DNA from: Clostridiales bacterium
GTDB lineage: Bacteria; Bacillota; Clostridia; Lachnospirales; Lachnospiraceae
Assembly (NCBI GenBank): GCA_020860365.1
Contig: JAJBUL010000152.1
Location: forward strand, 1 to 39,932
Reading direction: 5' to 3'
DNA length: 39,932 nucleotides
Positions 12,837-29,816 of the stretch are shown in pieces. Below the pieces are notes generated by a model that did not search any database, was not told the DNA's origin, and saw nothing but the letters and a program-made list of their open reading frames with translations. Both the position numbers and the translations under genes were made by a program. The stretch's first letter is position 1. Every line of letters begins with the position of its first letter.

Positions 12837-15329
12837 TCAATCATCCACCGGATAAACCTTTTCCAGTTCAGTCGGATCATCCCGGATACTTTCCAGTACA
12901 TCCTCCGGTAATTCCTGCACACTATTTTTCATCTTTTCCCGGTCTTTCCGCCTTGTCCTCTGAATTTCATGGAAGTTGGTATTCGCAAGCCGGTACATTT
13001 CAGAATATTTCGGTATCCGCGCGTCTACAGGAATGAATGTCCCGCCGCCAAATTTCAGCAGGCCACAGCCGGGCGAGGTATTCTGTACATATTCCAGAAG
13101 GTTGTCCGATATCCGGAGCGTACTCCTCAGGATTTCCATCTCGATTTCCGACTGGTTAAAAAAGGCGATGTACTCGGAATTGCAAAGCATCGTCTCGATG
13201 GTTTTCAATGCCAGACAGTCCGCGATATTCTGCGTGATTGCCGTACAGATTCCGCCCATTTTTCGCACTTCTTTCCATATTTTCTCGAAAAAATTGGCCG
13301 TGTACTGATGCGCGGCCATGTTATGAAACTCATCCACATAAAGCCAGGTTGCCCTGCCTTTTACCGCATTCCGGGCAATCCTGGCGCGGATTCCTTCCAG
13401 CATAATCAGCATCCCGATCCCGCTCTGTTCCTCCCCAAGGTCTGCAATCCCGTATACCGTCAGGCGGTTCCTGACGTTCACGTTTGTCGGTTTCGAAAAC
13501 ATATCCAGCGCGCCATTTACAAACACCTCCAGGTCAAGCCTCAGTTCCTGCGCCACCAGTTCATCCTGTTCCCCCAGTTCTTCGTAAAAGTCCAGCAGGG
13601 TCGGCGCAGGAGACCGTCTGCCACGTCTTTTCAGCACTTCCCCATAAACCCTTTTCACACACCGACCGATCAGGGAACGTTCCTGCCCGGTAATTTCGCC
13701 CTTGATCTGCGTGAACAGGCTGCACATCAGCTGTGTTTTATCGACCAGAAATTTGTCCGCCTCCATAAACTCCAGGGTATCTATGTCTAGGGGATTGATA
13801 TAATTCCCTGCCCCGGAACCAAACTCCACATACTGGCCGCCGAGGTATTCCGTAACTCCCTTGTATTCGTTCTGTGGGTCAATAATGATAATCTCATCCT
13901 CAAGCTGAAGGAATACCTCAGTAATCTCCAGTTTCGAATACAGGCTTTTTCCCGAACCGGTAGTCCCCAGCACAAAACCATTCCCATTTTTCAGACGCTT
14001 CCGGTCCCCGACCAGCACGTTTTTTGACACCTGGTTTATGCCGTAAAACTGCCCGCCCGGATGGTACAGCTCATGCACAACAAACGGCGTCATCGCGCAG
14101 AGCGGCTGGGTAAACAGCGGCCTCATGCCGTCTGTACAGAACCGCGTCCCGATCGGCAGTGCCGTGTTCACTGCATCTATCTGCATCCACCTTGCCGGGC
14201 GGAACACAAAGCCCTCGCTCTCCGCTGTCTGGTAAAACGCTACTACGTCATTCTCCAGACCCGTTAGGCTTCCAGCCGTGAGAATCGCGTAAACCCCGAC
14301 ATAAAACATCTTCTCGTCGTTTTCATTCAGGATATCCATGTAGGACTCCAGTTCCTCTTTCTCCCTGCGCCGCTCGTAGGTAATATCCGACGACCAGGCC
14401 CGCGCATTGTTCCTCGCCTCCTGCTGCTTCTCAATCGCCCTGCTGTTCTGCAGGTAAAGATGGTCCATTTCCTTGCGGGTGACCTCCTGTGGGATTGCCG
14501 CAGCTTCAATGGTCAGAATCACGTGCTGCGAGCCGCCCATCAGCTTCTGGATGACGGAAGTATCAATAGTATTCGGAAATTTCGGCAGATATAATACCCG
14601 TACATAGCGCCCGTCAATCTGGATGGTCATCCCGTCAAATCTTCCGTATTCATCCTGACAATGGCAGACCGTCATCGGGGCAATATAGCTTTTCCAGTCC
14701 AGTTTCTTCCACCCGGCCTCCTTAAAATCAAACTGGTATTCCGCCTCATCGCCCATGTTATAAAACGCAAAAAGGTAGCGCAGGCGTTCCGCGGCATTCA
14801 GCGGAACCAGTGCCGACTTCATACGGCCAAAGCAGAGCGCCAGGTTTGCTTCCAGGGAATGAAAATAATCCCTTGCCTGCCCCTCATTTTCCCTCTGGCA
14901 GCTGATCACAAACAGCCTGGCCTGCTCAATCCCGGCGCGTCCCTGCACAAGGGAGTCCTCGATATGGCTGTTCAGGGAATCCACCAGCTCTTTCAGCTGT
15001 CCGTTCCGGCAGCGGAGAAAGACTTCCTTCCGCACCTGGTCCATATCACGGTTATTATTCATAATACAGATCTTAAACGAAACATTCAGGCTGTTCAGCA
15101 TCCCGCAGTATAGCTTCAGAAAATCTTCCCTTTCATAATCGTCCATAGTCGCAAAATTGGCGTCCTCGAACAGGTAGGCCCGGTCATAGAGCTTCTTCGC
15201 CCCGTCCGGTTTCTCTTCCAGTTCAAAAATACCGTCCTTGCTGATACGGCAGACCGGAATAAGATCCTGCACCGTTTCCGGTATCTTATAAGGCTTTTCT
15301 GTTTTTCTCCTGTAATCCTGCATCTTCAT
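12837..15329 (-). CDS. virB4: VirB4-type conjugation ATPase
   Basis: An 830-residue, full-length protein. The N-terminal half carries the VirB4/TraE-like region. Walker A is GFVLGTTGSGKSLYSK at about 451-466, Walker B is ATWLYVDEFHNMAA at about 660, and the C-terminal arm holds TAITQNIADCL. VirB4 powers pilus/channel assembly and substrate passage of the type IV secretion system at the inner face of the membrane. The start ATG overlaps the prgI stop as ATGA, showing coupling. This and PrgI are among the intact core transfer genes in the window. Confidence 0.95.
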   Translation of the reverse strand: MKMQDYRRKTEKPYKIPETVQDLIPVCRISKDGIFELEEKPDGAKKLYDRAYLFEDANFATMDDYEREDFLKLYCGMLNSLNVSFKICIMNNNRDMDQVRKEVFLRCRNGQLKELVDSLNSHIEDSLVQGRAGIEQARLFVISCQRENEGQARDYFHSLEANLALCFGRMKSALVPLNAAERLRYLFAFYNMGDEAEYQFDFKEAGWKKLDWKSYIAPMTVCHCQDEYGRFDGMTIQIDGRYVRVLYLPKFPNTIDTSVIQKLMGGSQHVILTIEAAAIPQEVTRKEMDHLYLQNSRAIEKQQEARNNARAWSSDITYERRREKEELESYMDILNENDEKMFYVGVYAILTAGSLTGLENDVVAFYQTAESEGFVFRPARWMQIDAVNTALPIGTRFCTDGMRPLFTQPLCAMTPFVVHELYHPGGQFYGINQVSKNVLVGDRKRLKNGNGFVLGTTGSGKSLYSKLEITEVFLQLEDEIIIIDPQNEYKGVTEYLGGQYVEFGSGAGNYINPLDIDTLEFMEADKFLVDKTQLMCSLFTQIKGEITGQERSLIGRCVKRVYGEVLKRRGRRSPAPTLLDFYEELGEQDELVAQELRLDLEVFVNGALDMFSKPTNVNVRNRLTVYGIADLGEEQSGIGMLIMLEGIRARIARNAVKGRATWLYVDEFHNMAAHQYTANFFEKIWKEVRKMGGICTAITQNIADCLALKTIETMLCNSEYIAFFNQSEIEMEILRSTLRISDNLLEYVQNTSPGCGLLKFGGGTFIPVDARIPKYSEMYRLANTNFHEIQRTRRKDREKMKNSVQELPEDVLESIRDDPTELEKVYPVDD

Positions 15330-15772
15330 TCCGCCATCTCCCCATTTCCTTCATATGGCCCCAGCAGATTCTTCCGTTCCTTCTTTTTAATGTGGCCTGG
15401 TTTTACAGGTTTCCCCAGGCCGTCCGGCAGCTGCATTTCCTGCTGCAGGTTCCAGCCGGCATCCGCCTCCCTAAATATCATCGGCTGATATCGATACAAT
15501 GGTCTCCTGGTCACTGCCCGCCGCCTTTTCAGATATTCAAACGGGGATACCCCGTCTATTTTCACAAATCCCGCAGCCGCGAACGGCAACGCTGCCGGGA
15601 ACACCAGGTAAAGCGAAACCGTCTGCGGGAGCCCAAGCACGCCATTGCATAGGAAATAACAGCCCACACCAACTGCCAGCGTAAGCGCACACATCGTAGT
15701 CTGCCGCAATGTCATTCCCTTAAAAAAATCATCCTTGTAATCATCAATATCCTTATTTACAGGTATCTGCAT
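15326..15772 (-). CDS. prgI: PrgI family conjugal transfer protein (VirB3-like)
   Basis: A 148-residue membrane protein starting MQIPVNKDIDDYKDDFFKG. Two membrane segments lie at about 25-45 (MCALTLAVGVGCYFLCNG) and 51-71 (VSLYLVFPAALPFAAAGFV). The motif DGVSPFEYLKRR and a basic C-terminal tail follow, as in PrgI-family proteins that pair with VirB4. The ribosome site GGAGG lies 5 nt upstream, and ATGA overlap couples it to virB4. A minus-strand promoter (15800-15829) sits just upstream. This lets prgI-virB4 and downstream genes be expressed despite the opposite-strand toxin locus separating them from virB6. Confidence 0.9.
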   Translation of the reverse strand: MQIPVNKDIDDYKDDFFKGMTLRQTTMCALTLAVGVGCYFLCNGVLGLPQTVSLYLVFPAALPFAAAGFVKIDGVSPFEYLKRRRAVTRRPLYRYQPMIFREADAGWNLQQEMQLPDGLGKPVKPGHIKKKERKNLLGPYEGNGEMAE

Positions 15773-15799
15773 ATTTTTCCTCCGTTTCCATCATCTTCT

Positions 15800-15829
15800 A
15801 TAATATTGAAAGCTGCCATTCTCTTGCAA
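15800..15829 (-). promoter_or_regulatory. Probable promoter for prgI-virB4
   Basis: On the minus strand TTGCAA (15824-15829), an 18-nt spacer and TATTAT (15800-15805). It diverges from the antitoxin-RNA promoter, whose -35 begins 19 bp away. Confidence 0.5.
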
Positions 15830-15847
15830 ATTTTACTAAAATTGTCC

Positions 15848-15876
15848 TTGCTTAATTCACTCAATTCGCATATAAT
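15848..15876 (+). promoter_or_regulatory. Promoter of the type III antitoxin RNA and toxin
   Basis: TTGCTT (15848-15853), a 17-nt spacer and a consensus TATAAT (15871-15876). Transcription would start near 15883, at an 8-bp hairpin (ACAAGAAG at 15883-15890 with CTTCTTGT at 15897-15904) that precedes the repeats. Confidence 0.75.
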
Positions 15877-15882
15877 AAAAGT

Positions 15883-16065
15883 ACAAGAAGACACAACTTC
15901 TTGTCTTCGTTAAATGATGACGAGTGACGGTTCTGACTCGTCGGTAAAATAAAAACTGACCGAGCGAAGATGATGTGTGACGGTTCTGACACATCGGTAA
16001 AATAAAAATTGACCGGGCGAAGAACAATCCGGCGGGGTTGGATTAATCATCCATCCCCGCTTTTT
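15883..16065 (+). ncRNA. Putative type III antitoxin RNA: two 53-nt tandem repeats
   Basis: Two 53-nt units lie head to tail at 15916-15968 and 15969-16021. Each contains an inverted repeat whose arms differ between units by matched changes: GACGAGT/ACTCGTC in unit 1, GATGTGT/ACACATC in unit 2. The loop (GACGGTTCTG) is identical. A second pairing CGGT/ACCG flanks AAAATAAAAA-TG, and the loop CGGT could also pair with that ACCG, allowing an H-type pseudoknot. Compensating changes show selection on RNA structure. Two-plus repeats between a promoter and a terminator, directly upstream of a ToxN-like gene, is the ToxI/CptI/TenpI plan. The toxin would cut this RNA into units that then bind and inhibit it. 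Confidence 0.8.
16032..16065 (+). terminator. Terminator between antitoxin RNA and toxin gene
   Basis: GCGGGG-T-TGGAT, loop TAATC, then ATCCA-T-CCCCGC and TTTTT: an 11-bp stem with one T-T mismatch. In type III systems such a leaky terminator makes antitoxin RNA exceed toxin mRNA. It ends 16 nt before the toxin start codon. Confidence 0.9.
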
Positions 16066-16081
16066 ACGTGAGGTATTCAAA

Positions 16082-16555
16082 ATGGAATTTGATTCCGGTT
16101 TATATCTTTTATCATCTAAATTTATAACAGACTACCCGGCTTCCACGTACCCTGAACTTATGCATAAACAGGGACGTCCTTACACCTGCTTACTCATAGA
16201 TTCACATGAGGATTATTTTATCTGCGTTCCTTTTCGTTCAGATATCCGACATAAGAATTCTTTCCTTTTCTCCGGAACAAAGCGTTCAAAAAGGACAAGT
16301 TCTGGGTTGGATTACTCAAAAATCGTAATTATCAAAGACTCTGAATATATCGACTCAGATACCTCAGTTGTCATAGACCAGGACGAATATAACGAAATGA
16401 TCAGGAACCTTCCGACTATCGTTCAGGAAGCCAATGATTATGTAAATACATACATTGACCACGTTTCTGGTAAAACACAGATTCATCCAAGAGAATTTTC
16501 CCGGAAATATCAGTTTTCGACATTACCATATTTTCATGATGTCATGAAAATATAA
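16082..16555 (+). CDS. Type III toxin-antitoxin endoribonuclease toxin (ToxN/CptN/TenpN-like)
   Basis: A 157-residue protein starting MEFDSGLYLLSSKFITDY behind GTGAGGT. The compact beta-rich fold signature of this toxin superfamily is visible: GRPYTCLLIDSHEDYFICVP (31-50), FRSDIRHKNSF (51-61, with Ser53, His57 and Lys58 as candidate active-site residues by comparison with ToxN-type toxins), and GLDYSKIVIIKDSEYI (75-90). The rest is an alpha-helical C-terminus. Length (about 150-170) fits the family. The two RNA repeats and terminator immediately upstream give independent support. It lies on the plus strand between virB6 and prgI, opposite to the transfer operon, so read-through from virB6 would be antisense to it. 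The subfamily is not certain; CptN or TenpN is more likely than classical ToxN. Confidence 0.8.
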   Translation: MEFDSGLYLLSSKFITDYPASTYPELMHKQGRPYTCLLIDSHEDYFICVPFRSDIRHKNSFLFSGTKRSKRTSSGLDYSKIVIIKDSEYIDSDTSVVIDQDEYNEMIRNLPTIVQEANDYVNTYIDHVSGKTQIHPREFSRKYQFSTLPYFHDVMKI

Positions 16556-16569
16556 AAGCTCCACACCAG

Positions 16570-16588
16570 GAAATTTTCTTAAAATTTC
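16570..16588. other. AT-rich hairpin between converging toxin and virB6 ends
   Basis: GAAATTTT-CTT-AAAATTTC, a perfect 8-bp inverted repeat in the 39-bp gap between the toxin stop and the virB6 stop. It is too AT-rich to be a convincing terminator, but it is the only structure available to separate the converging transcripts. Confidence 0.4.
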
Positions 16589-16594
16589 ACGCAA

Positions 16595-16840
16595 TCATCC
16601 CAGCCCCAGGCACCGCCGCACTACTGTATCTGCCCCCTTCACACAGGCACACGCCGTTATCATCGGCAGGCAGTATTCACAGATTCCAAGCACTACGCCG
16701 ACCACTTCGCTGACGCTCCCGAATGCTGACGTGTCCTGGAACAATCCGTAGCTGATGTCGATTGCCAGGATAATCACCACTGCTTCCAGGCAATACCCGA
16801 TATACGTTCTCACCCACGCACTCCCGGCCTGTGAACACAC
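16595..16840 (-). CDS. virB6: C-terminal fragment of VirB6-like channel protein (after in-frame TGA)
   Basis: This 81-residue frame is the direct in-frame continuation of the upstream VirB6 fragment, separated only by a TGA at 16862-16864 and seven codons. It encodes AWVRTYIGYCLEAVVIILAI, then a membrane segment VVGVVLGICEYCLPMITACA and the basic end CVKGADTVVRRCLGLG. As I recall the family, these are the last segments of VirB6-like (CD0415/CD1112-type) proteins. The GTG start shown would allow reinitiation 21 nt after the stop behind GGCGG, but a separate functional protein is unlikely. Confidence 0.65.
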   Translation of the reverse strand: MCSQAGSAWVRTYIGYCLEAVVIILAIDISYGLFQDTSAFGSVSEVVGVVLGICEYCLPMITACACVKGADTVVRRCLGLG

Positions 16841-17983: not shown

Positions 17984-18009
17984 GAAAAGCCTGAGCAAAA
18001 ACTCAGACT
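17984..18009 (-). terminator. Terminator overlapping the adhesin stop codon
   Basis: On the minus strand AGTCTGAG pairs with CTCAGGCT (8 bp, one G-U) across TTTTTG, then TTTT. It would partly terminate adhesin mRNA before the pilin and virB6 genes. Confidence 0.6.
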
Positions 18010-21000
18010 CTCCTTCTTCTTTTTACGGCAACTGCCACGAGCAGCGCCGCTCCCGCCATCATTGCCAGAAGCGCCGGAAGATAGCGGAATCCATCGCCGG
18101 TATTCACGGATGATGACGTAAGCGAGCCCGACAAGCTGCTGGTACTGCTCTTTCCGGTCAGGTCAACCGTCGCCTCTTTGGGCGAATCGTACATCGTGAC
18201 ATACTGGTCTTCCGCCGAATCAACCACCTCAAAGGTGATGGTTTCCGCCAGCTCGTATCCATCCGGGGCTGTCACTTCCGTCAGCGTGTATGTCCCCGAT
18301 TGCATCCCAGCAATGGTATGCTCCTCATCCGTTGACGTCCACTCATCCACAACATTGCCATCCTCATCTTTTACCACCAGGGAGGCACCTGCAAGTTCTT
18401 CCTCATTTGTAATATCTTTCTTACTGATAATGACAATGTTCTTCGGCATATGGCTGTTTATGATGGTAAACGTATAGTCGTCCGCGCTTGCGTCAATGGC
18501 TGATTCATATCCTTCCACTTCTTCTTCGGTAACCGTGTAAAGGATCTCCTCACCCTCGTTCATATAAACCGGAAGTCCGGTGAGAATTTCAACAAAACCG
18601 CCTTCTTCGGTCAGTTCCAGCTCGTACACACTGCCGTCTGTCCCGGTCAGAGTTACAGAAATGCTGTCCGGCCTGATGCCATCACGGTCATTGTAATCTG
18701 CCCATTCCTTACAGATAACCAGGTCAACCACCGCAGGGATATGGTTATTTGTCACCGTAAATGTGTAACCATCCTCCCCTTTTAGGATTTCATCGGAATA
18801 GCCGTCCACCGCGGTTTCCTGCAGCGAATAATCAATCTGCTCACCCTTGTTCCAGTAAACCGGCAGATCTGTGAAAGTATATGTCCATTCGGTTTCTTCT
18901 GTAAGCACCGCGCTGTAACGGCTGCCGTCTGAACCGGTCAGAACCACTTCCACCTCATCCGGACGGACGCCGTCCTGGTTTTCCGCGTCCTCCCATGTCT
19001 TTGTAACTGTGATATCCGTTTTTGCGGTTTCATGGGTGTTGGTAAAGGTAAACCCATAGCCATCCTCTGTCGTCACAAGCTCCGCATCATAATTCGCCGT
19101 ATTATCCTCAGCAATCGTATAGGTAATCTTTTCCCCATGGTTGAAATATACAGGCAGGTTGGTGATCACCGCCGCCCAGCCGGTTTCCTCAGTCAGGTCG
19201 GCTTCATAGCTTTTCCCGTCCGAGCCATTTAAGGTAATATGCAGGAAATCCGCGCGGACACCATCACGGTTGTCATCGTCATTCCAGATTTTCTTCACAT
19301 TCACCTCGGTAGTCTCCGGTTCATGCGTGTTGGTAATCGCAAAGCTATAGCCTTCCTCCCCTGCTGCGATCTCCGTCTCGTATCCATCCACCGTCATTTC
19401 TTCCAGGGAATACTCTGCAAGCTCGCCTTCGTTGTAATACACGAAAACATCCTCAAAGGTATAAGCCCAGCCATTTTCAGCAGAAAGCTCCGCCTCATAG
19501 CTTACACCGCTGCTCGTTTTCAGCGTCACCGTAATGCTCTCCGGGCGCAGGCCATCCTGATCATCGTTGTCATCCCAGGTTTTCGTCACCGGGATGGAAA
19601 TTGTCGCCGGTTCATGCGTATTTGTGACTGTGAAAATATAACCTGTCTCATTCACGCTCACCGCAGTTTCATATCCTTCCACAGCATCCTCACTTACCGA
19701 GTACACAACGGTTGTGCCGTGATTGTAGTATACGGGCAGGCCGGTGAAAAGATACGAATATCCGTTTTCTTTCGTCAGATCTGCCTCATAGCTTCCTCCA
19801 TCCGTCCCGGAAAGCACCACATGGATGGTCTCCGGACGGATGCCGTCACGGTTGCTGTCATCATCCCATGCCTTTACGATTACCACATCCGTCACTGCCG
19901 GGATATGGTTGTTGGTCACGGTAAAGCTGTAACCGTCCTCACCCGCAATGACTTCATCTGAATAAGCGTCTACCTCTTTTTCCTGCAGCGAATAGGTGAT
20001 AACTATACCCTCATTCCAGTAAACCGGAAGACTTTTAAACGTATAACTCCAGTCCCCGGATGCTGTCAGCACCGCTTCCCGTACCGTGCCGTCTGACCCG
20101 GTCAAGACCACGGTAATCTCTTCCGTGCGCACACCATCCTGGTCATCTGCGTCATCCCAGATTTTCTCGACCGGAATATCAATAGTAGCGATCTCGTGGG
20201 TATTCGTCACCGTGAAATGGTTCTCGCTGTCTGCTTCGCTTACCGCACGAACATAATCACTTACCGGGCTTTCTTCCAGCGTATATTTGATTTTTGTCCC
20301 CTCGTTCCAATACACTGGCAGGTCGCTAAAGGTATAGTTCCACCCGTCATCCTCCGCGAGTTTTGCTACGCGCTCTGACCCATCTGAGCCGATCAGTTTC
20401 ACTTCCACGCTGTCCGGACGCACACCGTCGCGGTTGCTGTCATCGTCCCAGACCTTGGAGACGGTATATTCTGTGGTTTCTGCTGTGTGGGTATTGGTCA
20501 CTACAATGCGGTAGCCGTCTTTCCACGTGCCATCCAGTGCGGAATAAGACACCGTATATCCGGCAACCTCTTCCTCCGTTACGGAATAGGTAACTGCTTT
20601 TCCGTAAGCATAAGCCGGCAGGCCAGTAAATGTCACTCCCTGCTTCGAGGCATTGGCGCGGATCGTCCCGGATTTTGTCACGACGGTGACTGTCTCCCCA
20701 TTTTCATTTACCACTGTCCCGGTCAGGTTGACGGTCACATCCGTGCGTAGGCCGTCCTGGTTATCGTTATCCTTCCAGGCTTTCTCCACGGTTACGGAAG
20801 TCTCTGCACTCTCATTCTCAATCACCAGTTCCCCGTCCAGTGTTTCACCGTCAACCGTGAGGTAACTCACCCAGCCGCTCTCTGATGTTTTTCCAAGGAT
20901 TTGTATTTTCCACGTCTCCGCAGATGACTCATAGCCATCCGGCGCCTGGTATTCCACAAGGGTATAGGTGCCAAACGGCAGGCCATTCACCGCCAGAGTG

Positions 21001-24000
21001 CCGTCTGATCCGGTCGTCAGCTTGCAGGCAGCACTGACTTTTTCTTTCGTCCCGGAATAGGTTCCATTTTCAAAGGTCAGGTACTGCCCATCTGCGTTTT
21101 TCAGCACATAGACCGCTCCACTCAATGCCGTACCTGTCCCTGATTCCACTTTTTTCAGGGAAAAGCCAGATGTAAATGCGATCAGGCCTGCGTCGTTATG
21201 GCTGCTCTCGTAAAAGTAAGCATACATCTCATCCAGTTCCGGAAGGGTAATACCGCTGATGTAAGCGTACGCAATCCCGGAGCCATCCTCGTAAACAGAA
21301 GCGGTCGCATCCGAATCCACTGTATCATCTTCCCCGGCATCCTGCGCAGTCAGGCCATAGCCATCCATCCCGGAGAAAACAACATAGTATGTCCCGGCTT
21401 CGAGGTCAGTAAACTGATAACCGCCATCCTTGCCTGTGGTAACCGCAGCCACCTCATTTCCAAGGACATCGTATGCTGTATAGAGTTTCGCGCCACTGAT
21501 GGTCACCGCTGCTTTCTTCGATGACGCATATCCGGAAACGTTCGTCCGGTACAGCGTAGCGGTAACTCCGGAGAACAGAGCCTCTGTTTCTCCACGGATT
21601 CCATCGCTGTCTGCGTCCACCCATGCAAGGCCGCTGACCGTGCGCTGCACAACCTGCGCCGCAACCGTGTTGCTCTCTACCATGGCCACCTGTCCGGTCG
21701 CGTGCTCATAGAAAGAGTTTGCGTAAAGGTCGCCCGGATTCTGTGACAGTCCATCTGCATCCATCAGGAAATTTCCAGAGCCATCCTGCACGGTCAGCGT
21801 CACAGTAATTTTCAGATACTCCTGTGCTTTCACCGTCCCGATGTCAAACAGCAGCCCTGCCACATCGCTTAACGCGAGTCCGGAATAAGTAACCGTCGTC
21901 CCATCTGTGGAACCGCCGCTTACAGTCTTCCAGGAAAGGCTGTCCGACCCTTTTAGAATTGTCTCCGCCTGAGAGGTGTCCCTCGCGGATTCACTCCCCG
22001 TCCAGCGGATTTCCATGCTGTCCTTTACCGTACTGTAAGTTTCTTTTGCATTGGAAAAATCTACCGTGATACTGTCAACCGCATAACTGCCGCTGAACGA
22101 AGTATCCCTGCCATCCCCATTGTACGGAAGAATATCATACAGGACAACACCATCCACATCTTCCTCCGCGCTGTTTCCATAACGAATGATGTAAGTGATC
22201 GAATCGCCCTCTTCCACCAGGGCACTCTCCACTGCTTTCGAAACCGATGAAGTCGCCAGCTTGATCACGCTGATTGTCGTCTCTGAATAATTCCCATGAG
22301 CCGTGTTGATGGAACGGTCATCCTTGTCGGAAGTAATCGTTGCTGCGATCGTAAGCGTGTCATTGTTCTGCACGTCGTTCGCGGTTCCGGCCTCACCAAT
22401 CAGACAGGAAAGCGTGATATCCTCCATCGCCTCCCCAATCGTCTGGTTCTCCACCAGCCAGGTAATGGTGCTCGTCCCGTCCTCGTTTTCCACAACGGAA
22501 GCCGGGGCCAGGCTTGCGCTGTTCATGACATAGCTCAGGTCAGAAGGCAAGATAGCCGTAATGGTCACGTCCGTTGTATCTGTGGAAGACTCTACTTCAG
22601 TATTTGCCGAAACCACTGACACGGACGGATGGATCACATAAGTCACCGTCCGTTCCCCGGCATCCAGGTCATAGACCGATTTCGTCGTCGTCCCGCCCGC
22701 GGTTGTGGTCGTATCTGCTACTTTAATGGAAACACCCGTCTTACAGCCGATGATCAGGCAGGAATTTCCATAAATATATCCGCCCGAATGGCCGGAGACG
22801 ATACTGCCATCCTGATATACCGATTTACCATAATCGGTATACAGCTTGTAGGTCGGCGCGGTATATCCATCGATGTAGCTTCCCTCGCTAAAGGAGGAAT
22901 CACCAAGGCCGTACGCCCCGTTCCCGTAGGACACTTCCGTCCAGGAAAGGGCGTCGATGTCTTCGCCCCAGCAGCGCACATCATTGGTTGTCTGGTAAAC
23001 CGTGCCGATTTCTGCATCGGAAGTCACCTGCACATACATCTGGAAATTCAACGCAGATGCATCTGAAGCGCCCTGATAAATCTTGCTGTCCCGAACCTCG
23101 TACAGGAAACCTACGCAGGTGTACCCGGCCGCGTTCAGGGCGTCAATGCTGTCAAAATAGATCAGCTGTTCCTCACGGGTGGCATTCATCTCCGCATCGC
23201 TTGTCCACCCCGTCTTATCCGGTTTCGCAGCAAAAAGCACCGTCACACGCCCTACAGAACTCTCTGCATTTGTCACATACGTGGATGCGTATGTGGTTGT
23301 CCCCGCCGGGATTTCAAACGCCTCATCATCAAACTTCTGTAAAATATTGACAGAGGAAAGGTATCCATCCCCGCTGTAATCCAGGGTCGAGCTGATCCGG
23401 AGCATCTGGCCGTTATAGGCATAGGAATCCCCATAGGACCACACGGAAGCAATCTGACCGCCTGTTTCCGTATAAAAATAGTTCCGTTTGGAAATGCTGC
23501 CGCTCGGATACAGCGTCACATTCATGCCACTCCTATCATCCGCGCTGTTCTGATCTTCCGTTGTCACCTGGCCAGAAGCAGATACCGCATTTACGTTTCC
23601 AGTCTCAATCGTAAAATACAGGTTGGAAGTGGTATCTACGCTGCGGGCAAACTGGACAACAAACTGCACATATCCAGCGGAAAAGCAGCCAACGTTCGCT
23701 CCGTATACAATCGTCCCGGATGTATTGCCACAATTGTTGGTCGGAAAGTCCAGGTCTTCCAGGTCAAAGGAATAGCCGGATACCGTGACATGGTAAACAT
23801 TCGAGCTCTGTGAATCCTGGCTGATCGACCAGCTGCCCCCGTCATAGCAGGCATATTCTGTATCTGTCGCGCCCCCACTGTTCCACGGCTGCGCCCAGGT
23901 TCCATACGTGGATGTGGATTTCCCGCCCACTCCCATCTGCCGGCCAAGGGTACCGGTTGTACCAAGCCCGCCACTTGCGTTTTCCCTGTAATCCCAAAGG

Positions 24001-25781
24001 ATCGGCGTATAGTTCTCTTCCCCGGTGACATCCTCATTATCCAGGGATTCCGTCACCGTCAGGTCAAAGGAAAACTCCCCTGTGGGAAGCTCAATCCCTT
24101 TCAGTCCCTTATCCGAAGAAGTGTTGTAAAGCTGCAGTGTCAACGCATAGCCTTCCAGACGGCCATATACGGAACCCTCCGTGTCAGAGTCGCTTGCCGT
24201 TCCTGTTTCCGTATTAAAATACCCCAGGTAGTCACAGGTACTGGCTTTCGTCAGCTTGACATTATAACGGGGCGCTGCCGTCACAGTCACGGAATCCCCG
24301 GTGATCGTGCGGGAAAGGTCCTCCTCATTCCCTTCCATCCAGACCGTGAAAGTCGGCTGGAGCACATCTCCGTTCTGCGCCGCTTTTACATAAATACCAA
24401 CGCTCAATGTACCGGCACCCGGAATCGCGTTGCTGTCACCGTTTTGGGAAAGATAACGTTTCCCGGTCAGGATCTGCGCGTTCACCGTTTTGCTGCTGTC
24501 CCAGGAGGTAGAAGTTGTCCCGTCCGCATACACATACGTGATCACCCGGTCCACGCACCAGTTCAATGTATCCGTGTTAAACTCTGCCTTTGACGGGTCG
24601 CAGTCCAGGGTGAACTCTACCATCATATACGCCTCATCCACCGTCTGGGATGTATTCATCAGGGCGGTTGTATACTCCAGCGTATAATTCACATAATCAA
24701 AGGTACGCACGATGTGGTTGCTGGCGCTGCTGTCATTACCCGCCTCATCATCCGAATCAAACGGCGCAGTTCCGTCCTTCAGGCTCTTAACCGCCAGACC
24801 GGAAACATAGCTCTTATTCTCATTCAGGCCGCTGCCGGTGCTTTCCTCTTCCAGGGAAAGAAGCATGATCTCCCCATCCAGTGACTCTTCCGTCTCTGTC
24901 TCCATCTCAGATTCCGAATCGTCCGTGCTGCTATCCATTCCTGATTCTGTATCCGCAGCCTCCGTCTCAGCCCCGGTTTCATCGGATTCCTGGTTCCTGT
25001 CTGTCTCAGCCTGCGTTCCTGTATCAGATACCTGATCCGTCTGCGCTTCCCCCGCTGTTTCAACAGTAACCACCGTATCTGATTCTGACAGTCCCGCCAG
25101 GGTATCCGATTCCGTAGATGTGTCCTCTGACTCAGATGCTGTGCCTGATTCTAAACCTGCTGATTCAGTTCCTGTCAAAGCATCCGTAATGGAATCAGCT
25201 GTGCTTTCGGTGTCTGCCACGGAAGCACTCTCCGCTGAAACTTCAATACTTCCTCCTGACGTACCCACTTGCGGATCAGGGTCACCATCATCGGAATCTT
25301 CGGAGTCGTCACTGCCGCTTCCCTCATCAGAAACAGCGCTTGCACTGTCTGATTCTGATTCTTTTACAGTAATCACACGTGAAATCTGATAAGTTGGACT
25401 GCCACTTACAGGCTCCACATAATAGACCGCCTGGTATGTGTCAGCACGGTTGGTCGTGAAGGCATAGCCGCTCTCACTTTTGGCTTCATGGAGCGTGATC
25501 TCCACCTTTTCTTCCTTATAAGAAAGGCCGTCAAAATCCTCCTCTGGGTTAAAGCTGCTGCCATACCCGACCACAATATCTTCTGCGGTCACAATCTCAT
25601 CCTCATCCAGCTTCTCCAGGACATCTTCCAGCTCCGGAACCTCCGCCTCCAATGCAGATGAATCATTTGCACTTCCCGCTGCATAAGCCACAAGCGGCGA
25701 TCCCTCCAACGAAAAAGCGCTCACCACGGAAAGAATCCCGGCAAGCGCACGTCTAATCTTCTTTTTTATCAAGCTGCTCAT
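18003..25781 (-). CDS. Giant wall-anchored adhesin with SdrD-B, SpaA-like and eight Cna-B domains
   Basis: A 2,592-residue surface protein. The start at 25781 (MSSLIKKKIRRALAGILSV) is preferred because GTGAGGA precedes it; a GTG at 25802 is possible. It has a signal peptide (1 to about 35, ending VAYAAG), an acidic Ser/Asp/Glu/Thr-rich stretch (about 130-320), and a large beta-rich head (about 330-1380). An SdrD_B-like domain (GLAWVDADSDGIRGETE) and a SpaA-like domain (GFSLKKVESGTGTALSGAVY) follow, then eight Cna-B repeats and a last SpaA-like domain. The sorting signal is VNTGD, then a membrane helix and KRRRRV; there is no LPXTG. By analogy with conjugative adhesins it probably sticks mating cells together. 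It opens the transfer operon. The dedicated sortase is likely the one at 28965-29816. Confidence 0.92.
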   Translation of the reverse strand: MSSLIKKKIRRALAGILSVVSAFSLEGSPLVAYAAGSANDSSALEAEVPELEDVLEKLDEDEIVTAEDIVVGYGSSFNPEEDFDGLSYKEEKVEITLHEAKSESGYAFTTNRADTYQAVYYVEPVSGSPTYQISRVITVKESESDSASAVSDEGSGSDDSEDSDDGDPDPQVGTSGGSIEVSAESASVADTESTADSITDALTGTESAGLESGTASESEDTSTESDTLAGLSESDTVVTVETAGEAQTDQVSDTGTQAETDRNQESDETGAETEAADTESGMDSSTDDSESEMETETEESLDGEIMLLSLEEESTGSGLNENKSYVSGLAVKSLKDGTAPFDSDDEAGNDSSASNHIVRTFDYVNYTLEYTTALMNTSQTVDEAYMMVEFTLDCDPSKAEFNTDTLNWCVDRVITYVYADGTTSTSWDSSKTVNAQILTGKRYLSQNGDSNAIPGAGTLSVGIYVKAAQNGDVLQPTFTVWMEGNEEDLSRTITGDSVTVTAAPRYNVKLTKASTCDYLGYFNTETGTASDSDTEGSVYGRLEGYALTLQLYNTSSDKGLKGIELPTGEFSFDLTVTESLDNEDVTGEENYTPILWDYRENASGGLGTTGTLGRQMGVGGKSTSTYGTWAQPWNSGGATDTEYACYDGGSWSISQDSQSSNVYHVTVSGYSFDLEDLDFPTNNCGNTSGTIVYGANVGCFSAGYVQFVVQFARSVDTTSNLYFTIETGNVNAVSASGQVTTEDQNSADDRSGMNVTLYPSGSISKRNYFYTETGGQIASVWSYGDSYAYNGQMLRISSTLDYSGDGYLSSVNILQKFDDEAFEIPAGTTTYASTYVTNAESSVGRVTVLFAAKPDKTGWTSDAEMNATREEQLIYFDSIDALNAAGYTCVGFLYEVRDSKIYQGASDASALNFQMYVQVTSDAEIGTVYQTTNDVRCWGEDIDALSWTEVSYGNGAYGLGDSSFSEGSYIDGYTAPTYKLYTDYGKSVYQDGSIVSGHSGGYIYGNSCLIIGCKTGVSIKVADTTTTAGGTTTKSVYDLDAGERTVTYVIHPSVSVVSANTEVESSTDTTDVTITAILPSDLSYVMNSASLAPASVVENEDGTSTITWLVENQTIGEAMEDITLSCLIGEAGTANDVQNNDTLTIAATITSDKDDRSINTAHGNYSETTISVIKLATSSVSKAVESALVEEGDSITYIIRYGNSAEEDVDGVVLYDILPYNGDGRDTSFSGSYAVDSITVDFSNAKETYSTVKDSMEIRWTGSESARDTSQAETILKGSDSLSWKTVSGGSTDGTTVTYSGLALSDVAGLLFDIGTVKAQEYLKITVTLTVQDGSGNFLMDADGLSQNPGDLYANSFYEHATGQVAMVESNTVAAQVVQRTVSGLAWVDADSDGIRGETEALFSGVTATLYRTNVSGYASSKKAAVTISGAKLYTAYDVLGNEVAAVTTGKDGGYQFTDLEAGTYYVVFSGMDGYGLTAQDAGEDDTVDSDATASVYEDGSGIAYAYISGITLPELDEMYAYFYESSHNDAGLIAFTSGFSLKKVESGTGTALSGAVYVLKNADGQYLTFENGTYSGTKEKVSAACKLTTGSDGTLAVNGLPFGTYTLVEYQAPDGYESSAETWKIQILGKTSESGWVSYLTVDGETLDGELVIENESAETSVTVEKAWKDNDNQDGLRTDVTVNLTGTVVNENGETVTVVTKSGTIRANASKQGVTFTGLPAYAYGKAVTYSVTEEEVAGYTVSYSALDGTWKDGYRIVVTNTHTAETTEYTVSKVWDDDSNRDGVRPDSVEVKLIGSDGSERVAKLAEDDGWNYTFSDLPVYWNEGTKIKYTLEESPVSDYVRAVSEADSENHFTVTNTHEIATIDIPVEKIWDDADDQDGVRTEEITVVLTGSDGTVREAVLTASGDWSYTFKSLPVYWNEGIVITYSLQEKEVDAYSDEVIAGEDGYSFTVTNNHIPAVTDVVIVKAWDDDSNRDGIRPETIHVVLSGTDGGSYEADLTKENGYSYLFTGLPVYYNHGTTVVYSVSEDAVEGYETAVSVNETGYIFTVTNTHEPATISIPVTKTWDDNDDQDGLRPESITVTLKTSSGVSYEAELSAENGWAYTFEDVFVYYNEGELAEYSLEEMTVDGYETEIAAGEEGYSFAITNTHEPETTEVNVKKIWNDDDNRDGVRADFLHITLNGSDGKSYEADLTEETGWAAVITNLPVYFNHGEKITYTIAEDNTANYDAELVTTEDGYGFTFTNTHETAKTDITVTKTWEDAENQDGVRPDEVEVVLTGSDGSRYSAVLTEETEWTYTFTDLPVYWNKGEQIDYSLQETAVDGYSDEILKGEDGYTFTVTNNHIPAVVDLVICKEWADYNDRDGIRPDSISVTLTGTDGSVYELELTEEGGFVEILTGLPVYMNEGEEILYTVTEEEVEGYESAIDASADDYTFTIINSHMPKNIVIISKKDITNEEELAGASLVVKDEDGNVVDEWTSTDEEHTIAGMQSGTYTLTEVTAPDGYELAETITFEVVDSAEDQYVTMYDSPKEATVDLTGKSSTSSLSGSLTSSSVNTGDGFRYLPALLAMMAGAALLVAVAVKRRRRV
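18450..20810 (-). repeat. Eight tandem Cna-B domain repeats, about 290 bp each
   Basis: Each unit begins with a K-x-W-x-D core near 20770, 20445, 20150, 19865, 19570, 19280, 18990 and 18700, and ends with VTNTH or VTNNH. The first unit is slightly longer. The hexapeptide after the tryptophan alternates between Q and R forms along the array (NQDG, NRDG, DQDG, NRDG, DQDG, NRDG, NQDG, DRDG). This suggests growth by duplication of two-domain blocks. The repeats form the stalk of the adhesin. Confidence 0.85.
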
Positions 25782-25905
25782 AAAGTCCTCACTTTCTCTC
25801 ACTCTGTGGTCAACCGCCGCATCTTCTTCCTACAACATATTGCCTCGTTCCAGCCCTCTTCTGTCGGGCGCTTCGTTTACATTTTCTATCACTCCTTTCT
25901 TTCGG

Positions 25906-28964: not shown

Positions 28965-29816
28965 TCAATCATCTTCACTTTCCACATCCTGCCACACGAG
29001 GACACCCTGTACTACCAGGCGCGTAGCACTATTCCCATTACAAGTAGACAGTGTTACCGCTTTCTTTCCGACCAGGGCTGTAATGCCCGTATCTATTTCA
29101 GAAGTGTCCAGCATCTCATAAAACCATTCCGTATACCCCTCATATCCATCAAACTCCAAAGCGTAGGCGTTGCCATCTGCATCAACAGAATGAATCGAAA
29201 AGATACGGTACAGATAATCCCTGTCTGGTGTATAAATCCAAAAGTAGGGGCAGAAGACCAACACCTCTGAATCCTTGAACCGCTTCAGCTTTGCAAACAT
29301 ACTCCCGTCCCTCATGTTATGCCCGTAAATAACCGTATTGTAATCTTCCAGATAAGAATCATTCTGGTGATCCATGAAAACACTTCCGGCGTAGATGTAA
29401 CTGCCATCTGGTGAGCGGTGGAGGTAATAATCATTGTCCTCTGCCTGCATCACCGGATAGGAAATCTCCACAGCCGGAATCTGAATCCATGCGACACAAT
29501 CATCGTAACTTGCCGACAAAGCATCCCAATCTACCACAATGCGCTCTGGTGCGTCTTCCGGAAGAACCTCTGACCCGGTTTCAGATATGGTATTTTTTTC
29601 CATATCATCCGTCTCACTGCCTGTCTCATCCCCGGCGGCAGGCTCCGTATCTTCACTTTCCTCTCCTGGAGGATTATCAATGGTAAATGCAGCTTCCATC
29701 TCGTCATACGTTTCCCGGCCTTTCTGGTAGGTGAAGTACACCCGCAAGGCCATTGCAATTCCCGCAATTAGCAGGATAAAAGCAGCGATTCCACAAATCA
29801 ATTCCGTTTTTTTCAT
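28965..29816 (-). CDS. srtB: Class B-type sortase, probably dedicated to the element's adhesin
   Basis: A 283-residue protein. It has an N-terminal membrane anchor (about 5-27, LICGIAAFILLIAGIAMALR), an acidic linker (about 40-95), then the sortase barrel: WIQIPAVEISYPVMQ (110-124), catalytic His166 in YGHNM, catalytic Cys259 in TLSTCNGN and Arg266. YLHRSPDGSYIYAGSVFMD is typical of class B. Sortases cut a C-terminal sorting signal and join the protein to the wall. The only substrate in the window is the Cna-B adhesin with its VNTGD signal. The start follows the previous stop by 2 nt, so the two are coupled, in the maintenance rather than the transfer operon. Confidence 0.92.
   Translation of the reverse strand: MKKTELICGIAAFILLIAGIAMALRVYFTYQKGRETYDEMEAAFTIDNPPGEESEDTEPAAGDETGSETDDMEKNTISETGSEVLPEDAPERIVVDWDALSASYDDCVAWIQIPAVEISYPVMQAEDNDYYLHRSPDGSYIYAGSVFMDHQNDSYLEDYNTVIYGHNMRDGSMFAKLKRFKDSEVLVFCPYFWIYTPDRDYLYRIFSIHSVDADGNAYALEFDGYEGYTEWFYEMLDTSEIDTGITALVGKKAVTLSTCNGNSATRLVVQGVLVWQDVESEDD

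Follow-up and report, generated by a model that had tools for sequence, protein, structure and literature searches.

A 157-residue gene and two short RNA repeats on a 39,932-nt contig of a Lachnospiraceae bacterium (the window, meaning the whole stretch of DNA analysed) very probably form a TenpIN type III addiction or defence module of a mobile element, with two pseudoknot antitoxin units and a helix that closes the array. The locus itself is an ordinary TenpIN member and extends a known family. On our best reading of its relatives, TenpIN RNA would serve as an antidote in the rival elements and phages that have acquired it. An earlier note on this DNA had recognized a type III toxin–antitoxin locus; the toxin family and the gene order bear this out and sharpen the assignment to TenpIN, and the promoter, the two 53-nt repeats, the terminator and the 157-aa open reading frame all lie where that note placed them. 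As an overall interpretation it holds for the type III assignment and for selection on RNA pairing, and is not supported for the new subfamily that it thought possible from the 53-nt unit. The module comprises the following features.

15848..15876, + strand: predicted promoter TTGCTT-N17-TATAAT, read from the sequence (TTGCTT 15848-15853, TATAAT 15871-15876, 17-nt spacer)
15883..15904, + strand: 5' leader hairpin ACAAGAAG/CTTCTTGT, 8/8 paired and present in the predicted fold
15904..15909, + strand: 5' arm of the closing helix, TCTTCG, able to pair with 16018-16023 or 15965-15970
15916..15968, + strand: antitoxin unit 1, 53 nt; predicted core pseudoknot 15919-15962 (S1 15919-15925/15936-15942; S2 15928-15932/15958-15962)
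15969..16021, + strand: antitoxin unit 2, 53 nt; predicted core pseudoknot 15972-16015 (S1 15972-15978/15989-15995; S2 15981-15985/16011-16015)
16018..16023, + strand: 3' arm of the closing helix, CGAAGA, from pairing, a permutation test and the predicted fold
16032..16065, + strand: terminator hairpin and T run between antitoxin and toxin; arms 16032-16043/16049-16060, 11/12 paired (92%)
16070..16073, + strand: GAGG, likely ribosome binding site by its sequence, 8 nt ahead of the start codon
16082..16555, + strand: toxin gene, TenpN family, 157 aa (NF047358 profile; dN/dS 0.07-0.10)

The 157-aa protein scores 178 bits against the NCBIfam TenpIN toxin profile NF047358 (cut-off 90), and its remaining NCBIfam match is a single weak, unrelated family. 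It matches no Pfam family, PF13958 (ToxIN) included, and PF13958 gives one weak match (E 6.6e-4) among the toxins of 28 relatives. PADLOC profiles return weak unrelated matches only (best E 0.0018); in the PDB, searched by sequence, no solved structure matches the toxin, and the family profile finds unrelated entries only, from E 0.042. The toxin is the sole TenpN match in the window's own genome. TenpN proteins that exceed the cut-off are encoded by 9 of 194 relatives, 15 of 397 evenly drawn genomes of the same family and 2 of 398 genomes of the phylum, the window's genome being counted in each of the three tallies. dN/dS was computable in four of six pairs, where it lies at 0.07-0.10, and saturated in the other two; the toxin is under purifying selection. 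As a protein query, it retrieves 56 plasmid records, all below 60% identity, and one phage record. A TenpN protein search of viral contigs yielded four stretches, none of them a relative, and the TenpN-bearing viral records L123, L190 and L206 were reached through the RNA search instead.

Two further observations concern TenpN-like proteins. L024, L025, L026, L032, L059, L060 and L061 encode proteins of this kind below the TenpIN cut-off (41-48 bits in the three tested), preceded by a strongly conserved stretch of ~100 nt that has two unlike halves and no tandem repeats, and over which no Rfam family reaches its gathering score in L059-L061. This group may be related to type III systems and use another kind of antitoxin RNA. 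In a 141-kb IMG/VR record (G926; L190/L205), the intact TenpN is preceded at ~1.1 kb by another TenpN-like match, which is weak and contains a stop codon.

Sequence and conservation fit a single promoter ahead of the repeats, albeit one with a weak -35 box: TTGCTT agrees with the consensus at only 3/6 places, many relatives have a better -35 (TTGATA or similar) at the identical 17-nt spacing, and a generic scan listed neither the module's promoter nor its terminator on the + strand. Leader hairpins of differing sequence occupy the same place in many relatives. The predicted fold of the window transcript contains the terminator hairpin; its energy is -58.8 kcal/mol, whereas 200 shuffles average -43.0 (sd 3.75), which gives z -4.2. 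The last codons of the toxin gene overlap a perfect 12-bp inverted repeat (16528-16553) at its 3' end.

Units 1 and 2 are tandem 53-nt repeats, 89% identical to each other, whose S1 arms differ (GACGAGT/ACTCGTC and GATGTGT/ACACATC) and pair at 7/7 positions in each. The earlier note had taken this as a sign of selection on RNA pairing. Two repeats alone could not prove covariation, so we aligned 43 distinct 44-nt cores, with gaps in one column only. S1 is paired in 98.0% of cells, with double changes in six of its seven pairs; S2, formed by the loop sequence CGGTT and the downstream GACCG, is 97.7% paired and varies little. For the whole structure, pairing reaches 97.9% (84.0% in shuffled and 18.5-55.6% in slid alignments) and the covariation score 0.358 (0.116, sd 0.013, shuffled; at most 0.106 slid). 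Because related sequences can exceed such shuffles without any structure, the slid control and the count of double changes weigh more. Selection on pairing is upheld by this alignment and its two controls. The unit is predicted to fold as an H-type pseudoknot, on covariation for S1 and, since S2 hardly varies, on conservation and not compensatory change for S2. The loop that the note described as identical is indeed constant; it would be half of the pseudoknot, constant because one strand of S2 lies in it.

The cores were located by loop and tail motifs. When no pairing filter is applied, S1 pairs at 7/7 positions in 67 of 71 distinct contexts, at 6/7 in two and at 5/7 in two, the two worst being L048, with a broken toxin, and L235, with none detected. 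An IMG/VR scan that left the stem almost unspecified returned 31 stretches, of which 27 carry the unit and four are chance matches (L273-L276, 1-4 of 7 pairs); a shifted-register control pattern gave 18 matches, with S1 at 5/7 pairs or fewer. Within the window, the loop motif matches three times at up to two mismatches, the two exact matches being the two units (0.30 expected; three reached in 0/100 shuffles). Rfam matches to the window array are at chance level only: ten up to E 10, the best over the array at E 1.6, all far below gathering scores. As a DNA query, the array finds one plasmid record, a 22-base chance match, and one phage record, a degenerate copy (MT835481.1). Several candidate unit loci were rejected: the unit proved absent on inspection in L187, L194 and L196, only part of the tail matched in L207 and L208, and L069, L209, L210, L213 and L216 lack the unit. 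L235 (G720) has a single unit that joins the 5' arm of unit 1 to the 3' arm of unit 2, with S1 at 5/7 and no toxin detected in the locus; from its sequence it looks like a product of recombination between units 1 and 2.

The array also appears to be closed by a helix of its own. Its arms in the window, TCTTCGT/GCGAAGA, lie in the leader ahead of unit 1 and in the 3' tail of the final unit. The leader could pair equally well with the unit 1 tail, and the closing helix is present in the transcript's unaided fold. In L047 and other 52-nt relatives the corresponding arms are CTTCATCA/TGATGAAG; they are GGATAGTTTC/GAAGCTATCC in L199, TCAGCT/AGCTGA in L051 and CTTCACCAG/TTGGTGAAG in L167. In phage lineage B they are CTACCC/GGGTAG (L125, L168), another helix scoring better in L082. 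Over 33 contexts, picked by hand to drop near-duplicates, the helix scores at least 6 in 28 and averages 7.20, whereas 300 permutations of the partners average 5.91 (sd 0.20, maximum 6.5). The scores fall below 6 in L007, L110, L120, L219 and L220, and in L044, L082, L228 and L231 the best helix sits elsewhere than in other contexts. When each unit's arms are compared with shuffles, many units are null, with up to 300/300 shuffles scoring no worse. Most of these are second units, which was to be expected, but L007, L120, L110, L189, L190 and L051 are also among them. The arms thus differ between loci yet match, a pattern that points to covariation. A literature search, over sources available in part, returned no report of such a helix; the founding TenpIN survey lay outside its scope, and we do not claim absence from print.

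Unit number follows the state of the toxin. Where the toxin frame is intact, 18 of 19 loci, three of the 19 being viral records, have at least two units, versus 6 of 17 bacterial-genome loci in which the toxin is broken or undetected (p 2e-4), in a hand-made tally that leaves out the toxin-less phage records, L010, L014 and L062. Adding L010, which has two units and a toxin with an early stop, brings the broken group to 7/18 (p 4e-4). L041, with an intact toxin frame and a single unit, is a counter-case. The tally fits a need for two units and also joint decay.

Judged by its genes, the module sits in a conjugative element, because the contig carries, besides the two conjugation genes listed first below, a relaxase, RepA_N, ParA/ParB, a sortase and a Cna_B surface protein. 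The element may resemble Tn1549-type elements. The surface protein (2599 aa, 18003-25802) contains eight Cna_B stretches and SpaA domains, and the sortase gene lies at 28965-29816. Sister elements lack part or all of the module, as given in the last two lines.

15326..15772, - strand: PrgI-family conjugation gene adjoining the module (PF12666, E 5.8e-19)
12837..15329, - strand: TraG/VirB4-like conjugation ATPase (PF19044, E 1.5e-16)
16072..16588, no strand: stretch missing in the toxin-less L245 and L247, with the same junction in both and the antitoxin kept
15784..16596, no strand: stretch without counterpart in L248 (G040), where the whole module is absent and 66 unmatched nt take its place

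In a survey of the genus, the array is present in 7 of 47 genomes, five of which have TenpN over the cut-off (interrupted early by a stop in G023). Of the remaining two, G010 has no TenpN match at all and G036 has one weak match of 37.5 bits on another contig. Both carry the same element as the window, with 90.5-95.2% identity on either flank. L245 and L247 retain the promoter, both units and the terminator, with one change in the -10 box of L247. As the junction is common to both, we infer that the toxin was lost before they split; if so, the RNA would have been kept without its toxin. The L245 array is identical to that of the window, so in L245 the toxin loss may be recent, or the stretch may have been exchanged.

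Units also occur in 27 IMG/VR records. A TenpN search of these whole records gave matches in three (L123, L190, L206), the best match in each being over the cut-off; the other 24 show no TenpN match and may be fragments, although six exceed 97 kb. Phage-borne antitoxin-like RNA with no TenpN match, as in pseudo-ToxI, thus occurs in 24 of 27 possibly fragmentary records, and these 24 are not independent, lineage A contributing six near-identical records and lineage B ten. In 19 of these records the unit is placed within a tRNA array or next to a tRNA. It sits between tRNA-Phe and tRNA-Lys in lineages A and B wherever the locus shows both, and because of this shared position the two probably represent one inheritance; in lineage C (two records) the unit is near tRNA-Leu, and in L167 it is beside tRNA-Gly. 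No tRNA is present in the examined locus of L120, L189, L192, L199 or L200. Among tRNA-array contexts, L082, L110, L125, L167, L168, L183 and L195 have no promoter-like site above 7/12 within 100 nt. After the core, tRNA-array units lack the junction GA(A/T)GA found between bacterial units and run into a closing arm, save in lineage C, whose arms are weak; loss of the junction might make these units uncleavable.

No Rfam family reaches its gathering score over the phage units in 10 loci, and around the L082 unit Rfam finds a tRNA and chance-level matches only. Lineage B phages have a conserved stretch of ~200 nt after the unit (L082:985-1210), also with chance-level Rfam matches only, and a skipping-rope RNA lies near the unit in the tRNA arrays of L110 and L167. 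As to hosts, phage DNA searches gave tRNA-type matches only, and the lineage A large terminase has no match at or above 60% among 101 phage records. In 250 genomes of the Lachnospiraceae family it has one match, in G695 (E 1e-40, 52%), on a contig that also carries, 44 kb away, a toxin-less two-unit array (C13:264,928-265,002). The presence of both on one contig suggests that this family hosts relatives of the tRNA-array phages. The literature search brought up no account of TenpI units within the tRNA arrays of phages; it drew on partly available sources and did not extend to the founding TenpIN survey, and absence is not claimed.

The phage-borne and other toxin-less units might be functionless, decaying remnants of full TenpIN modules, a reading we regard as doubtful but not negligible. 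Single-unit bacterial loci often adjoin toxin remnants (L005, L006, L218, L229), the phage copy in MT835481.1 is degenerate, S2 is damaged in L120, and the IMG/VR records may be fragments. The pattern of change speaks against decay, however: between L245 and L247 the unit cores differ at 0/88 positions and the rest of the aligned stretch at 26/284 (p 0.0012, or 0.0013 with 12 further unchanged junction columns), and between lineages A and B the core differs at 3/44 positions, of which two form a single compensatory pair, as against 39/88 in the flanks (p 7e-6). Moreover, S1 is paired at 7/7 positions in every toxin-less phage context listed, and the promoter of L199, a phage array of two units with no toxin, matches the consensus in full (12/12). 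An unlikely alternative is that the phage units serve some other purpose in tRNA arrays, for example as a processing signal or inter-tRNA spacer. Their position in 19 of 24 records would suit this, as would the start of the core, 17-29 nt past the end of a tRNA, in L167 and lineages A and B, the skipping-rope RNA in the same arrays and the theta ribozymes found within 5 nt of phage tRNAs (PMC10879173). Yet the lineage A core is identical to window unit 1 at 43/44 positions, a likeness that a generic spacer would hardly require; in the 10 loci Rfam recognizes no family at gathering score; and two-unit toxin-less arrays occur with no tRNA in the examined locus (L189, L199, L200).

For the window locus itself, the alternative is that toxin and 53-nt antitoxin make up a new type III family, to which the missing Pfam family, the missing solved relative by sequence and a unit exceeding the ToxI and CptI units in length would lend themselves. 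We consider this highly improbable and set it aside on the NF047358 match, at twice the curated TenpIN cut-off, and on relatives whose units form a series from 46 to 53 nt. In the tree built from 28 toxins, 53-nt units fall in an eight-row clade (support 94/94); the enclosing 15-row group (support 88/89) has 51-53-nt units save for the single unit of L041, a deeper eight-row group has 46-47 nt in the five rows with a callable period, and L034, outside these groups, has 51 nt. Relative to 52-nt units, the extra length is one linker base. Because 53-nt units fill one clade and 51-52-nt units its sisters, the length is a clade trait; given also the 46-47-nt distant loci and the 45-nt CptI unit, the new subfamily suggested earlier is not sustained.

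The reading we favour is a TenpIN module whose RNA may have spread as an antidote. One promoter would drive the leader, the two pseudoknot units and a leaky terminator, and some read-through transcripts would make TenpN. In ToxIN and CptIN the toxin cuts the array and each unit blocks the enzyme (PMC5086642, PMC4627078). By family resemblance, TenpN would act as an endoribonuclease and release from the array single units that fold as H-type pseudoknots and block TenpN, and the leader/tail helix would close the array. CptIN stabilises its carrier (PMC4627078) and TenpIN of Photorhabdus aborts phages (PMC5377504); by analogy, the module likely keeps its element in the host and may act against phages. 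Ribonuclease activity, processing, inhibition, addiction and defence are thus putative here, carried over from the family.

The toxin-less copies in sister elements and phages could most simply be antidotes against TenpN, a proposal to which we give an even chance and for which PhiTE provides the precedent of a phage-borne antidote RNA (PMC3475682). More broadly, TenpI-type pseudoknots may be a shared currency of conflict, an idea we place midway between belief and disbelief: the single closed units of phage tRNA arrays, made together with the tRNAs, would be perhaps uncleavable TenpN inhibitors, and the toxin-less prophage and conjugative arrays of one or two units would be anti-addiction modules against TenpIN-carrying rivals. 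If they are antidotes, the repeated toxin-less pattern would amount to a standing counter-defence against type III systems; RNA antidotes would be more than the escape route known from PhiTE selection experiments, and phage tRNA arrays would gain a role beyond translation. The RNA anatomy is also described in more detail, with the pseudoknot and, as a further part of the antitoxin transcript, the closing helix.

Among known systems, TenpIN, named from Photorhabdus (PMC5086642), shares the curated toxin profile, the operon order, the tandem units and the terminator between RNA and toxin; the more distant TenpIN loci found here have 46-47-nt units in place of 53 nt, and the window also has the closing helix, the Photorhabdus RNA itself not entering this comparison. 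CptIN of Eubacterium rectale (PDB 4RMO; PMC4627078) likewise comes from gut Clostridia and has an H-type pseudoknot with a long A-rich second loop, but its unit is 45 nt, and the NCBIfam match of the window toxin is TenpIN. ToxIN (Pectobacterium, Bacillus) and AbiQ have the same order and presumed mechanism, with units of 34-36 nt (PMC5086642); the window toxin has no PF13958 match. The pseudo-ToxI of phage PhiTE (PMC3475682) is, as here, a phage-borne type III antitoxin RNA with no toxin; wild-type PhiTE has 1.5 repeats and no complete unit, whereas the wild phage records described here carry complete TenpI-type units of putative activity, mostly in tRNA arrays.
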